64,000 nt of DNA from Candidatus Puniceispirillum sp. (GTDB taxonomy: Bacteria > Pseudomonadota > Alphaproteobacteria > Puniceispirillales > Puniceispirillaceae), in assembly GCA_016778895.1 (NCBI GenBank), contig JADHOR010000003.1:1-64000 (forward strand). The letters are read 5' to 3'. The translations under genes were made by a program, and so were the position numbers. Under the pieces are notes generated by a model. It saw only the letters and a list, made by a program, of their open reading frames with translations, was not told the DNA's origin and did no database searches. This document shows, one piece after another, positions 4,853 to 53,878 of this stretch. Position 1 is the first letter of the stretch, and every line of letters starts with the position of its first letter.

Positions 4853-6085
4853 ATGTCAGATAAAATTATTATTATCGGAGCTAGTCATGCGGGTATTGCC
4901 TGCGCCGAACAATTACGCACGAACGGGTTCGCCGGCCAGATTACCATTATCGACCGGCTAAACGGCCTGCCGCTTGAACGCCCGCCATTGTCAAAGGCGT
5001 TTCTGCAGGCCGATGGCAGCGACGATGCGAAATTTTTATTGCGGCGATCTGACTGGTTTACCGCGTATCAGATTGACCTTGTTGATGGCCGGATTGCAAC
5101 GGCAATTGACCCGGTGCAAAAGCAGATAAGCCTCGATGATGGCTGTCGGTATAACTATGACAGGCTGGTGCTTGCCACCGGCGCGGTGCCGCGCCAGCTA
5201 GCAGCGGCAAGTGGTCTTGATGGGGTGTTTGTGCTGCGGCATCCAGATGATGCGCATCGTCTGCGTATGGCAATTGGGGGTCGGCGTCATGCGGTGGTGA
5301 TTGGCGGTGGTTATATCGGGCTGGAGGTTGCCGCCAGCCTTACCAAAATTGGCGTTAAGGTCGATGTGATCGAAATGGCCGACAGATTATTGGCGCGGGT
5401 GGCGAGTCCGCCTATTTCGGATTTTTTTGCAGAGTTACATCAAAGCCATGATGTGCGGCTTCACCTTGGTGCCAGCAGTGATGAGATCTTGCAGCAGGAT
5501 GGTAGCTTTGCCGGCATACGCCTTGACAGCGGTATGGTGCTTGACGCTGAATTATTGCTTATCGGTATTGGGGTGTCGCCTGACCTGGAGCTGGCGGCCG
5601 ATGCCGGGCTTGCCTGCGGTAATGGCATTCTTGTCAATGCCAGGATGCAAACCTCACTGGACGATATTTTTGCCATTGGTGATGTCGCCCTAATCGACGG
5701 GGCGGCGTTGCGGATTGAGTCTGTTGATAATGCACAAGTAACGGCAGCGTGTGCCGCCGCGGCGATTTGCGGCACTGCCCAACCGGCACTAGCGGCGCCA
5801 TGGTTCTGGTCAGAACAGTTTGATGTGCGGTTGCAATCCGCCGGGATTGTGCCTTTGGCCACTGCTGAGGTGCAATACTCGATGCGTCTGGGCAAGCGCG
5901 AAGGCGGGTTTTCGGTCTGGAGCTATGATCAGGCGGGCGCGCTTGCCGCGGTCGAGGCGGTTCGCGATCCAGCTGGCTATATGCTTGGCAAGAAATGTCT
6001 TGATGAGGGGTTGTCACCCGACCCTGACGAAATCGTCAATGCCGATTTTGACCTAAAAGCCTTCATTGCGGAGGCAGCCCAATGA
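4853..6085 (+). CDS. FAD-dependent ferredoxin--NAD(P)+ reductase
   Basis: The roughly 410-residue flavoprotein has two Rossmann motifs. GASHAGIACAEQL near the N-terminus binds FAD, and GGGYIGLEVAASL near residue 155 binds NAD(P)H. LERPPLSKAF and the FAIGDVAL segment near 280 are typical of ferredoxin and rhodocoxin/putidaredoxin reductases (Rubredoxin/ThcD family). It would pass electrons from NAD(P)H to a small Fe-S protein, but no ferredoxin gene sits beside it. I chose the ATG at 4853 because CAGGAA precedes it by a good spacing; an ATG at 4850 and a GTG overlapping the HAD stop at 4826 are alternatives. It overlaps the threonine aldolase by ATGA. Confidence 0.85.
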   Translation: MSDKIIIIGASHAGIACAEQLRTNGFAGQITIIDRLNGLPLERPPLSKAFLQADGSDDAKFLLRRSDWFTAYQIDLVDGRIATAIDPVQKQISLDDGCRYNYDRLVLATGAVPRQLAAASGLDGVFVLRHPDDAHRLRMAIGGRRHAVVIGGGYIGLEVAASLTKIGVKVDVIEMADRLLARVASPPISDFFAELHQSHDVRLHLGASSDEILQQDGSFAGIRLDSGMVLDAELLLIGIGVSPDLELAADAGLACGNGILVNARMQTSLDDIFAIGDVALIDGAALRIESVDNAQVTAACAAAAICGTAQPALAAPWFWSEQFDVRLQSAGIVPLATAEVQYSMRLGKREGGFSVWSYDQAGALAAVEAVRDPAGYMLGKKCLDEGLSPDPDEIVNADFDLKAFIAEAAQ

Positions 6086-7134
6086 CGAGTTATCAGGATG
6101 CGGCGCAGGCCAATCAACAGGTGTGGATTGACCTTCGGAGCGACACCGTAACCAGACCAACTGCAGCGATGCGTGAAGCCATGGCAAATGCTGAGGTTGG
6201 TGATGATGTATATGGTGATGACCCGACAGTAAACGAGCTTCAGGCGAGGGTAGCCAAGCTTCTTGGCAAGCAAGCGGGTCTGTTTGTTGCCAGTGGTACG
6301 CAGTCCAACCTTTGCGCATTGCTGGCACATTGCCAGCGCGGTGACGAATTGCTGGTTGGTGATTGCTATCATGTTCACCGCTATGAGGCTGGCGGCGTAT
6401 CCGTGCTTGGTGGGGTAATGATGGAGGCGCTTGCCACGGATCATCGCGGCATGATGCAGCCTGCTGCCATCACCAAGGCGGTAAAGCCGGATGACCCACA
6501 TTGCCCGATCAGCCGTCTGCTATGTCTGGAAAATACCGTCTCGGGTCACGCGCATGACGTGGCAAGCATCGCCGGCCTTGCCAAGGCTGGACGGGATAGC
6601 GGGCTTGCGGTACATCTTGATGGGGCGAGGCTGATGAATGCGTCGGTCAAGCTGGGCGTGCCCGCGCGCCAGCTGGTAGAAGCGGTTGATAGCGTGTCTT
6701 TGTGCCTGTCAAAAGGATTGGGAACGCCAGCCGGATCAGTGCTGGTCGGATCAGCCGAATTTATTGCGCGCGCACGCCGGATGCGCAAGCTGGTTGGTGG
6801 CGGTATGCGGCAGGTTGGTATTCTGGCCGCGGCAGGGCTTTATGCGCTTGAACATCACATTGACCGGCTGGCCGATGACCATGTGGCGGCGCATCGCCTT
6901 GCGGATCAGCTTGGTCAAATTGCCAAGGTTACGGTGAATGCCGATCTGGTTGAAACAAATATGGTCTTTATGCAGCTGCCAGAGGGGGCGGCAGACCCGC
7001 TTCGGGCGCATCTTGCTGGCCGCGGTATCTTGCTTGGCACTGGCGACCGGACAATCCGGCTTGTCACGCATCTTGATATTGATTTCTTGGCGATCGATCA
7101 ATTTACCGCCGAAATTGCTGATTTTTTCGGATAA
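6082..7134 (+). CDS. Low-specificity L-threonine aldolase
   Basis: The 350-residue protein belongs to the PLP-dependent beta-eliminating lyase/threonine aldolase family, which cleaves L-threonine or allo-threonine to glycine and acetaldehyde. It opens with the family signature [11 protein letters not shown], followed by [22 protein letters not shown] and VHLDGARL mark the cofactor pocket, and [11 protein letters not shown] near 213 contains the PLP-binding Lys. The start overlaps the reductase stop by four bases, so it is coupled to the upstream genes. Length and motifs are normal. The glycine produced could feed one-carbon metabolism, which is of interest beside the folate-dependent DmdA, but that link is inference. 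Confidence 0.9.
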
Positions 7135-7253
7135 GGCGTTTTTGCGCAAAAATATCCTATAAGTTGACGAAAATGGAATATCTGATCAGGTTTTAACTAT
7201 GGCAATATCCCGTGAAAATGTGATGTCTTAGTCATTCATACATGGGTGCTGTC

Positions 7254-8363
7254 ATGGCGGTTCAGCTATCGATTGGTTCGCGGGTTCGCAAAAGCCCGTT
7301 TTTTAAGTCAAGTCGTAACGCCGGTCTGACGGCTGCAAGTGTTTATAATCATATGTATATGCCAACCAGCTATGGTGATCCAGCGGCCGAATATGACCGC
7401 CTTATTAATGGTGTTGCCATGTGGGATGTTGCGGTTGAAAGGCAGGTCGCACTGAAGGGGCCGGATGCGCTGGCGCTGGCGCGGTTATTGACGCCGCGTA
7501 ATCTTGACGGTCTGGTCATCGGGCAGGGAAAATATGTACCGCTGTGCAATTATAATGGCGCGATTATCAATGATCCGGTCCTGTTGCAGGTTGCCGAGCA
7601 TGAAATCTGGCTGTCGATCGCCGATAGTGACATTCAATTATGGGCAAGCGCGGTGGCGGGCGCGCTGAAGCTGGATGTCGACGTGTTTGAACCTGATGTC
7701 TCGCCGCTTGCGATTCAGGGGCCAAAGGCGATTGAGGTTGTCTCGGATCTATTTGGTGACTGGGTCCGTGAGCTAAAATATTTTGGCTTTCGGGTTACTG
7801 ATCTTGGCGGGATTCCGCTAGTGGTTGCGCGGTCGGGCTGGTCAAAGCAAGGCGGCTATGAGCTATATCTTCGTGACGCTAGTCGTGGTGATGAGTTATG
7901 GGCGCGTGTCGCCGAAGCGGGCAAGCCCTACAGTATAGGGCCGGGTACGCCCAATTACATTGAACGGATTGAAAGTGGCCTGATTTCCTATGGCGCTGAT
8001 ACTGATGCTGAGACCAACCCGTTTGAACTGGGTATGGATAAATTCATCGCGCTTGATCAGCCGTATGATTTCATTGGCAAAGACGCGCTGATCGCGATCA
8101 AGAGAGCTGGTGTCACGCGCCGTTTTATGGGGTTGATTATTGATGGCCCGCGGATCATGCAGACGAGTGAGGATCGTCATAACGTCACGTGTAATGGCGC
8201 TGATGCTGGCTATGTGAGTGCGTGTGTGTTCTCGCCGCGGGTTGGTGAGAATATCGGCGTTGGCATGGTGTCAATTGTGGCAATTGATGCGGCAGAGCCG
8301 GTGCAGATCCAGATGGAAGATGGGCCGCGATCAGCTCGCATTGTTCCACTGCCCTTTATCTAG
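7254..8363 (+). CDS. dmdA: Dimethylsulfoniopropionate demethylase DmdA (GcvT family)
   Basis: The protein of about 370 residues belongs to the glycine-cleavage T-protein fold family and carries the marks of DmdA rather than GcvT. These include VYNHMYMPT, WDVAVERQV, WLSIADSDIQ, ARSGWSKQGGYELY, GPGTPNYIERIESGLISYG, NPFELG and the C-terminal LPFI, which I recall as very close to the Pelagibacter enzyme. DmdA demethylates DMSP with tetrahydrofolate to give methylmercaptopropionate and 5-methyl-THF in the cytoplasm. The ATG at 7254 has GGGTG upstream; the ATG at 7242 is an alternative. It has its own 107-base or longer leader and seems to stand alone; dmdB, dmdC and dmdD are not nearby. Confidence 0.88.
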   Translation: MAVQLSIGSRVRKSPFFKSSRNAGLTAASVYNHMYMPTSYGDPAAEYDRLINGVAMWDVAVERQVALKGPDALALARLLTPRNLDGLVIGQGKYVPLCNYNGAIINDPVLLQVAEHEIWLSIADSDIQLWASAVAGALKLDVDVFEPDVSPLAIQGPKAIEVVSDLFGDWVRELKYFGFRVTDLGGIPLVVARSGWSKQGGYELYLRDASRGDELWARVAEAGKPYSIGPGTPNYIERIESGLISYGADTDAETNPFELGMDKFIALDQPYDFIGKDALIAIKRAGVTRRFMGLIIDGPRIMQTSEDRHNVTCNGADAGYVSACVFSPRVGENIGVGMVSIVAIDAAEPVQIQMEDGPRSARIVPLPFI

Positions 8364-9422: not shown

Positions 9423-10325
9423 ATGGAAATTCCAAAAAAGAATAATCTAGCCGGTATATGCTTTTCGTTAAGTGCCGGTTTTTTATGGGCAATCGTTCCA
9501 CTCTATATCAAGTCTGTTGATGCTGACGACCCGTATGAGATCATTGCGCATCGCTCATTATGGTCGGCGGTGCTGTTATTTGTGATTTGTTGGATTGCGG
9601 GACAGCTTGGCGATATTTGGCGTTTGATACGGGTGCGACATAATTTATTTAATTTTTTTGTAACAACCTGCTTTTTGTCGCTGAATTGGGGGTTTTATGT
9701 TTATGCAGTGCAGACCGAACAGGTGGTTGGGGCGGCACTAGGCTATTTTATCTATCCGCTTTGTACGGTTTTTTTCAGCATTCTTGTGCTTGGGGAAAGA
9801 CTTGATAAATGGGCGGGGCTGGCGATCGGGCTAGTATGTTTTGGGGTAATTGCAAAGGCGATTATGATTATGGGGGTGCCGTGGATTTCGCTGGCGCTGG
9901 CGGGCAGTTTCTCGCTTTACGCGGTGTTACGTAAACGGATGGATGTTGATCCGTTGCAGGGGCTGTTTATTGAGACGGTGATTTTGCTGCCATTTGCTGC
10001 GGGGTTCCTGTTCTGGATGCAGGCCAACGGGCAGGTGCCATTTTTTGGTGGTGGCGCCGCAAATGTTGCACTGGCATTGTTGGCTGGCGGGATTACGGTG
10101 TTGCCACTTGTACTGTTTTTAAAGGGCAATCGGGTGCTAAGCATGACCATGGCCAGTTTGCTTTTTTACAGCAATCCGACAATGCAGCTTTTGTTTGGTG
10201 TGATGGTGTTTTCTGAAGCGTTTTTACTGCAGGATCTAATTGTATTTGGCTTGATCTGGCTTGGCATAACGATCTATTTCACGACGCGGGCCCGGGTGGC
10301 GCGCCTCGCAGTCCCTGCGCCATAA
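9423..10325 (+). CDS. rarD: RarD/EamA-family transporter
   Basis: The 300-residue integral membrane protein has about ten hydrophobic segments in two EamA repeats. It has RarD-type landmarks: GICFSLSAGFLWAIVPLY at the start, EIIAHRSLWS near 40, LNWGFYVYAV near 87, and LGYFIYPL near 110. RarD proteins (chloramphenicol-sensitive protein family) belong to the drug/metabolite transporter superfamily in the inner membrane; their substrates are mostly unknown. It is flanked by minus-strand genes and appears to be transcribed alone. The ribosome site before the ATG is weak (GGCGGG). Confidence 0.92.
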   Translation: MEIPKKNNLAGICFSLSAGFLWAIVPLYIKSVDADDPYEIIAHRSLWSAVLLFVICWIAGQLGDIWRLIRVRHNLFNFFVTTCFLSLNWGFYVYAVQTEQVVGAALGYFIYPLCTVFFSILVLGERLDKWAGLAIGLVCFGVIAKAIMIMGVPWISLALAGSFSLYAVLRKRMDVDPLQGLFIETVILLPFAAGFLFWMQANGQVPFFGGGAANVALALLAGGITVLPLVLFLKGNRVLSMTMASLLFYSNPTMQLLFGVMVFSEAFLLQDLIVFGLIWLGITIYFTTRARVARLAVPAP

Positions 10326-53801: not shown

Positions 53802-53878
53802 GGGCCTGTAGTTCAATTGGTTAGAACCCACGGCTCATAACCGTGTTGTTGCAGGTTCGAGTCCTGCCGGGCCCACCA
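53802..53878 (+). tRNA. tRNA with CAU anticodon (Met or lysidine-modified Ile2)
   Basis: The 77-base gene folds as a full cloverleaf. The 7-bp acceptor is GGGCCTG/CGGGCCC (one U-G pair), the D stem GTTC/GAAC, and the anticodon stem CACGG/CCGTG with loop CTCATAA (anticodon CAT). The T arm GCAGG TTCGAGT CCTGC ends before discriminator A and an encoded CCA. The acceptor lacks the unpaired first position of initiator tRNA, so it is elongator Met or Ile2; the acceptor and anticodon stems do not decide this by eye. Confidence 0.95.

Follow-up and report, generated by a model that had tools for sequence, protein, structure and literature searches.

A non-canonical DMSP-demethylase-like gene of SAR116, placed beside the DmdA clade and possibly equivalent to DmdA in function

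DMSP demethylases and their close homologs

DMSP demethylases (DmdA) act in the breakdown of DMSP, a sulfur compound of algae. Those of Ca. Pelagibacter ubique (P. ubique; structure 3TFH) and Ruegeria pomeroyi are the two proven enzymes with which the protein described here, encoded in a 64,000-nucleotide stretch of Candidatus Puniceispirillum sp., a marine SAR116 bacterium (the window; contig JADHOR010000003.1), can be compared. It resembles both in fold, length, the folate-site residues and Y32, W197, K199 and Q200 (P. ubique DmdA numbering throughout), but they differ from it in clade, in the tyrosines at positions 29 and 94 and in passing the cut-off of the NF009133 model. A dmdA mutant is complemented by SAR92 proteins that share 35-40% identity with the proven DmdAs and are placed outside clades A-E (PMC10746254). 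By description, these enzymes (HTCC2207, H921, H231) are similar to the window protein in their identity to the proven enzymes and in their position outside clades A-E, whereas their cluster order, dmdA-acuH-dmdB-dmdC, is unlike that of the arrays reported below. Two further comparisons, also made by description only, concern SAR11_1265, a DmdA-like aminomethyltransferase paralog that coexists with a DmdA (PMC3160333), and the 'non-DmdA' proteins of PMC7487153, which, like the window protein, are close homologs outside the DmdA clade. GcvT shares the fold of the window protein, but its motifs differ and the distance is large.

As for gene context, mmgC, fadD, mhpC and dmdA are among the SAR11 genes of PMC3160333, and AcuI flanks the true dmdA in R. 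pomeroyi, matching the published arrangement (PMC3338564). MetY of R. pomeroyi is reported to be able to incorporate MeSH (PMC9769926). Within SAR116, dmdA has been reported in HIMB100 and IMCC1322 (PMC3368413), has been said to occur only in subgroup LGC2 (PMC8547437), and is the target of a probe subclade, B/3, represented by a SAR116 strain (PMC6309047). Our literature search, in the parts of the papers available, retrieved no recognised test of a SAR116 protein for DMSP demethylation and no functional study tied to the clade of the window protein, here called W, although the one on SAR92 DmdA may be such a study; it also retrieved no paper containing both HIMB30 and dmdA.

The gene and its product

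The genome that carries the window comprises 2.17 Mb in 61 contigs and is 99.6% complete. The open reading frame of interest, from its ATG to its stop codon, is confirmed as real (Table 1), and its GC content, 53%, is like that of the window. An in-frame ATG lies slightly upstream, but the downstream start is preferred because relative L042, of the same genus and 91% identical, reads ATA at that position. The gene is under purifying selection, with dN/dS of 0.08-0.10 against six same-genus orthologs and 0.19 against one ortholog from another genus, an eighth comparison (L051) having been left out as out of register.

Table 1. Features of the window in and around the DmdA-like gene
Feature	Positions	Strand	Remark
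Low-specificity L-threonine aldolase	6082..7134	+	Conserved upstream neighbor in the window's family
Gap between threonine aldolase and window gene	7135..7253	+	119 bp; without Rfam match
Alternative longer start, in-frame ATG 7242	7242..7253	+	Unconserved in one close relative
W-clade DmdA-like, THF-dependent methyltransferase gene (predicted)	7254..8363	+	369 aa
NDP motif	7569..7577	+	Both GcvT rows differ; ND common to all three paralog types
RSGWSKQGGYELY	7830..7868	+	Equivalent of P. ubique DmdA W197, K199, Q200, E204, Y206
GPGTPNYIERIES block	7938..7976	+	Motif present
RarD-type EamA transporter	9423..10325	+	Conserved downstream; 23/80 named loci (best 80 of 192 relatives)
ORF of 499 aa	1488-2987		Matches nothing in Pfam or NCBIfam (E ≤ 0.001)
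tRNA	53802-53875		Sole Rfam match over the gathering score in the window

The protein has the Pfam domains GCV_T and GCV_T_C, and its top NCBIfam model is that of DMSP demethylase (NF009133), at 386.9 bits against a cut-off of 410. The GcvT models give 166.5 and 126.5 bits, neither reaching its cut-off (300 and 235.85). Among solved structures, the best relative is P. ubique DmdA 3TFH (E 4.7e-87, 295.8 bits), compared with 133 bits for GcvT 1WOO, and in the alignment with solved relatives GcvT has DD where the window protein has ND. The initial annotation, which had read the protein as DmdA-like rather than GcvT-like along its whole length and had pointed to the GPGTPNYIERIES block and a terminal LPFI, is borne out in these respects, both motifs being present. 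An AF2 model (mean pLDDT 87.8) superimposes on 3TFH with Z 45.3 and rmsd 2.2 over 367 aligned residues, and on GcvT 1WOS with Z 40.1 and rmsd 2.0 over 348.

The window protein is 39-40% identical to the proven DmdAs; it has the DmdA fold and keeps the folate-binding residues E204 and Y206, together with Y32, W197, K199 and Q200. Across its subclade, N33, Y95, N107, D108, S122, K199, Q200, E204 and Y206 are kept in 28/28 rows, and Y32 in 27 of them, the remaining row having X. DMSP-contact residues, and the roles of the W and E/Y residues in RSGWSKQGGYELY, were assigned solely after PMC7487153, whose DMSP-contact tryptophan, W171, was equated with W197 by an offset of +26 that fits E178 and Y180 too. 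Position 197 is W in all 28 subclade rows and Y in 17/17 rows of the C25 type (a paralog described below). It cannot decide the matter, because among the 26 class-wide DmdAs that score over the cut-off, 15 have W there and 11 have Y, and W197 as a proof of DMSP use was therefore rejected. Y32 is found in all 36 other over-cut-off DmdAs compared (2 proven, 26 class-wide, 8 from SAR116) and in 4/4 proteins of family f3, and the C25 type has V32 in 17/17 rows. A29 and K94 replace Y29 and Y94 in the window protein, so its pocket may differ from that of both proven enzymes.

Phylogenetic placement

Two careful trees, of 50 and 61 rows, and one quick tree were built. In the 50-row tree, three clades separate: W with support of 100/98, a DmdA clade that includes the C25 type with 97/65, and the C21 type with 100/100; the window's subclade has support of 96/82, and the W copy of R. 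pomeroyi belongs to another W subclade (100/100). A tree constrained to unite the window's subclade with the DmdA clade is 64.1 log units worse (p-AU 3.9e-5, AU values being indicative only, since the groups were named after the first tree had been seen), and the penalty is 268 log units when seven W genes of family f1, that of the window, are joined to just the two proven enzymes. With more DmdAs, in the 61-row tree, W is apart again (98/96). Here, a weakly supported group (81/77) unites both proven enzymes with the DmdAs of SAR116 genera g2, g6, g8 and g10, which fall on the P. ubique side (89/95), while the C25 type (99/98) has no resolved position beside it. A GcvT-like gene on contig C52 and the GcvT of HIMB30 form a far outgroup in the quick tree.

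In every tree, the window protein is outside the clade of P. ubique and R. pomeroyi DmdA. The strict name DmdA given by the initial annotation thus does not hold, the equivalog cut-off being missed and both proven enzymes lying in another clade, in trees in which clades A-E are not all represented by name. The annotation had suggested a phylogeny as its check: the remoteness of GcvT agrees with it, but the position outside the proven-DmdA clade comes close to the placement that it had itself named as telling against it.

Paralogs in the genome and across SAR116

The window's genome has three DmdA-like genes, the window gene (386.9 bits) and those on contigs C21 (372.7 bits) and C25 (562.5 bits), of which the last alone exceeds the DmdA cut-off; the C25 protein is 47% identical to 3TFH, the window protein 39%. 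In the C21-type paralog (L009:8926-10068), SELGYE replaces KQGGYE; paralogs of this type also occur in R. pomeroyi (L157) and in a SAR11-like genome (L233). Three kinds also coexist in R. pomeroyi SZCCDBG043 (645.8, 383.8 and 378.8 bits), and in the quick tree they correspond to the DmdA, W and C21-type clades, the W copy being 52% identical to the window protein. The order was surveyed in 136 genomes: a match at E ≤ 1e-60 is present in 116 of them, one over the DmdA cut-off in 38, and an ortholog of the window gene (at least 54% identity) in 41, which belong to families f1 and f4. W is the only family member (E ≤ 1e-60) in the f4 genomes G126, G127, G132 and G135. A DmdA-clade-like gene was fetched from 11 f1 genomes (G064, G066-G069, G076, G095, G109, G118, G122 and G123, a non-exhaustive list), and only G118 has W as well, a near-exclusion of the two. 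Elsewhere, the W gene is split in two pieces (G082:C227:5938-6985 and L134:5013-6048), and one G082 piece has a TGA inside it.

Gene neighborhoods

Neighbors of W genes were compared at named loci, that is, the best 80 of 192 relatives, a partner being a relative of AcuI, MetY, ACS, the hydrolase or MTHFR of at least 100 bits within 1.5 kb. The threonine aldolase upstream, which the initial annotation had noticed, is a real and conserved neighbor, present at 25 of these 80 loci and, at 24 of the 25, 90-161 bp away. Its description of the gene as stand-alone also stands: none of the 26 f1 loci among the best 80 of 192 has a partner in its 1.5-kb flanks, and none of the MetY, AcuI, ACS, FadB, DmdB and acyl-CoA-dehydrogenase queries found a homolog by tblastn (E ≤ 1e-5) in the 64 kb of the window. 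Outside the window's family, the same best 80 of 192 include MetY downstream (12/80), AcuI 31-69 bp upstream (7/80), a FadB-type gene (8/80), ACS (9/80) and an MTHFR-type gene upstream (3/80), and within the window's subclade but outside f1, a partner is present at 15 of the 18 named loci. The other W subclades have none in 1.5-kb flanks (0/32 named loci of the best 80 of 192), or 3/32 when flanks are unequal (1.5 versus at least 5 kb) and one acyl-CoA-dehydrogenase query is included; L111, L112, L116, L117, L122, L125, L128, L134 and L146, which belong to other sets, were left out of this count. An acyl-CoA dehydrogenase lies within 1.5 kb at four of these 32 loci (L126, L137, L141 and L145) and at none of the 18 subclade loci.

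The fullest arrays are those of SAR116 family f4, with the order LysE-AcuI-W-MetY-hydrolase-FadB-ACS and formaldehyde-oxidation-type genes on the opposite strand. In f4 genomes G124, G126, G132 and G135, the sole AcuI (E ≤ 1e-60) and the sole MetY (E ≤ 1e-120) flank W. An MTHFR-type gene and ACS stand on either side of W in HIMB30 and two Litoricola genomes, an arrangement to which the metF beside SAR11_1265 may be likened. These gammaproteobacterial W genes (L093, L096 and L107) group with those of SAR116 f1, and a horizontal transfer is the likely source of them. Among four deep W loci, a ligase occurs at L125 (425-4806), where a BCCT transporter and a deep-branch W-like gene stand in a row with a gene resembling MMPA-CoA ligase (806.8 bits against a cut-off of 822), a candidate compact DMSP operon.

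In the window's genome, the corresponding genes are dispersed: AcuI adjoins dddP on C55, MetY, hydrolase and FadB lie together on C11 (70, 47 and 57% identity), and two ACS homologs are on C54 and C29. This dddP (G000:C55:42212-43510; L181, L192) has two in-frame stops, TGA and TAG, neither of which occurs in same-genus G083, and is either a decayed DMSP lyase or an assembly error. A second MetY-like gene (G000:C46:13975-15261) has one in-frame TAA.

DmdA-clade genes of SAR116 are found in similar surroundings. Five g2 genomes without W have LysE-DmdA-ACS, the LysE being only 31-40% identical; G122, also without W, has MetY-hydrolase-FadB with DmdA-ACS on the other strand, and in W-less G109, FadB-hydrolase-MetY adjoins DmdA. 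Five of these seven genomes are rows of the 61-row tree, and G067 and G069 were placed by similarity. In two SAR11-like genomes, the order is ACAD-ACS-hydrolase-DmdA, with a DmdA 76-78% identical to 3TFH, an ACS 54% identical to that of one f4 W array and a hydrolase 31-32% identical. Since the same partner families stand beside DmdA-clade genes elsewhere, the companions of the true DmdA also accompany W. Co-occurrence with FadB, considered as a W-specific signal, was rejected: FadB (E ≤ 1e-150) is present in 73/136 genomes of the order, genera without W included, and because of this and of the module in G109 and G122, MetY-hydrolase-FadB does not mark W specifically.

Across the class, DmdAs over the cut-off have a partner within 1.5 kb at 15/26 loci, SAR116 DmdA-clade genes at 8/12, and the C21 type at 1/9. 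Missing partners are weak evidence, because the f3 genes, which belong to the DmdA clade, have none either (0/4); both these and the four partnerless SAR116 DmdA-clade loci are explained in part by contig ends. Within 1.5 kb, the C25 type has no partner at any of 28 loci, nor is there one in seven longer stretches of C25-like genes, one of which (L253) has an acyl-CoA dehydrogenase. L037 and L040, apart in the quick tree, were left out of this set, and their inclusion would give 1/30 (L040, ACS). Instead, a TPP enzyme and/or an FMN-dependent dehydrogenase adjoins the C25 type at 28/28 loci. The C25 locus of the window's genome (G000, L010:1040-9149; set L012-L041) has an MTTB-family gene about 4 kb off in L010.

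Possible functions of the window protein

We lean, by a little, towards the window protein being a DmdA-like THF-dependent demethylase that does the job of DmdA from a clade beside that of DmdA. What is directly established is its fold, folate-site residues, clade and neighbors, and the DmdA-clade genes in similar SAR116 surroundings. Methyl transfer to THF is predicted from the sequence and the structural model, and DMSP as the substrate, suggested by context, has about an even chance. The protein would move one methyl group from DMSP to THF, yielding methylmercaptopropionate (MMPA) and 5-methyl-THF, and the ligase, the FadB-type enzyme, AcuI and MetY would act downstream. In f4, W would work from one operon-like array with AcuI, MetY, the alpha/beta hydrolase, the FadB-type enzyme and the acyl-CoA ligase; in the window's family, it would have moved beside the threonine aldolase, the array probably having come apart rather than been assembled. 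The link to DMSP drawn by the initial annotation accordingly survives through acuI beside the broken dddP and through the orthologs of another family in DMSP-type arrays, but not through strict identity with DmdA.

Several observations weigh against this reading. The protein is outside the DmdA clade and below the cut-off, and neither its gene nor the f1 relatives have DMSP-type neighbors. Some other W genes adjoin an acyl-CoA dehydrogenase, one of them, at L137, together with carnitine-type genes, and the MMPA-CoA ligase model NF005426 has no match at E ≤ 1e-150 in 8 f1/f4 genomes. Moreover, a dmdA mutant of R. pomeroyi makes no MeSH (PMC5395565), which argues against W as a DMSP demethylase because W and C21-type copies are present in the species, although the mutant is of strain DSS-3 and the copies were seen in strain SZCCDBG043.

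The same mutant, in which the W copy fails to replace DmdA in vivo, favors the idea that the C25 protein is the genome's DMSP demethylase and that the window protein demethylates another onium compound, such as glycine betaine, a carnitine-derived compound or a similar N-methyl donor. The score and the closeness to 3TFH of the C25 protein point the same way, as do L137, L141 and L145, where a W relative stands 21-22 bp before an acyl-CoA dehydrogenase. At L137 (2113-7252), these two are followed by a CoA ligase of the ADP-forming type and by a gene resembling crotonobetainyl-CoA hydratase (304 bits against a cut-off of 500) in a carnitine-like setting, but L137 belongs to another W subclade. 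We find this division of labor doubtful, the C25 type being without a DMSP-type partner at all 28 loci and in the longer stretches, accompanied by the TPP enzyme and/or FMN dehydrogenase instead, and having V32 against Y in all other over-cut-off DmdAs compared; the C25-type protein may have another substrate.

A role of the window protein as the missing MMPA demethylase is unlikely, too; it would take off the second methyl group to give mercaptopropionate, from which a ligase, a crotonase domain and AcuI would then release H2S and propionyl-CoA, with MetY fixing the H2S. In favor of this, AcuI, MetY, a ligase and a FadB-type enzyme are all part of the f4 array, and in 18 kb of L197 neither of two acyl-CoA-dehydrogenase queries was matched (E ≤ 1e-12), so that AcuI and the absence of that dehydrogenase are explained better than by the use of DMSP. 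SAR11_1265, dmdA-like and beside metF, has been proposed for this step, the enzyme being called unidentified in PMC3160333; the W genes of HIMB30 and Litoricola have an MTHFR-type neighbor too, and in the window's genome W coexists with two further paralogs. Against this, W is alone in four f4 genomes, in which therefore no family member would make MMPA unless W has a dual activity or MMPA is imported, and DmdA-clade genes have a similar setting in other SAR116 genera. Quite improbable is an extension of the scheme to the whole of clade W, in which mercaptopropionate would pass via mercaptopropionyl-CoA to acryloyl-CoA and H2S, AcuI and MetY would clear the products, and the C25 type would make MMPA or have another substrate.

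That the window protein is an orthodox DmdA of clades A-E would suit its full-length similarity and motifs but is very improbable, as it scores under the cut-off and a tree uniting its subclade with the DmdA clade fails the AU test. A GcvT, of the same fold family, was rejected by scores (166.5 bits against 300), motif (ND, not DD) and tree, where the C52 GcvT-like gene and the HIMB30 GcvT are remote, and has a negligible chance.

Implications for DMSP demethylation in SAR116

The window gene, read as a DMSP demethylase-like gene, is a second and non-canonical one that may well do the same job as DmdA in a genome in which the C25 gene bears the official DmdA name. The papers conflict over DMSP demethylation in SAR116, and the existence of three paralog types could explain the conflict. 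If the W type works and the C25 type does not, the gene counted by probes and annotation rules in this abundant marine clade would not be the right one.
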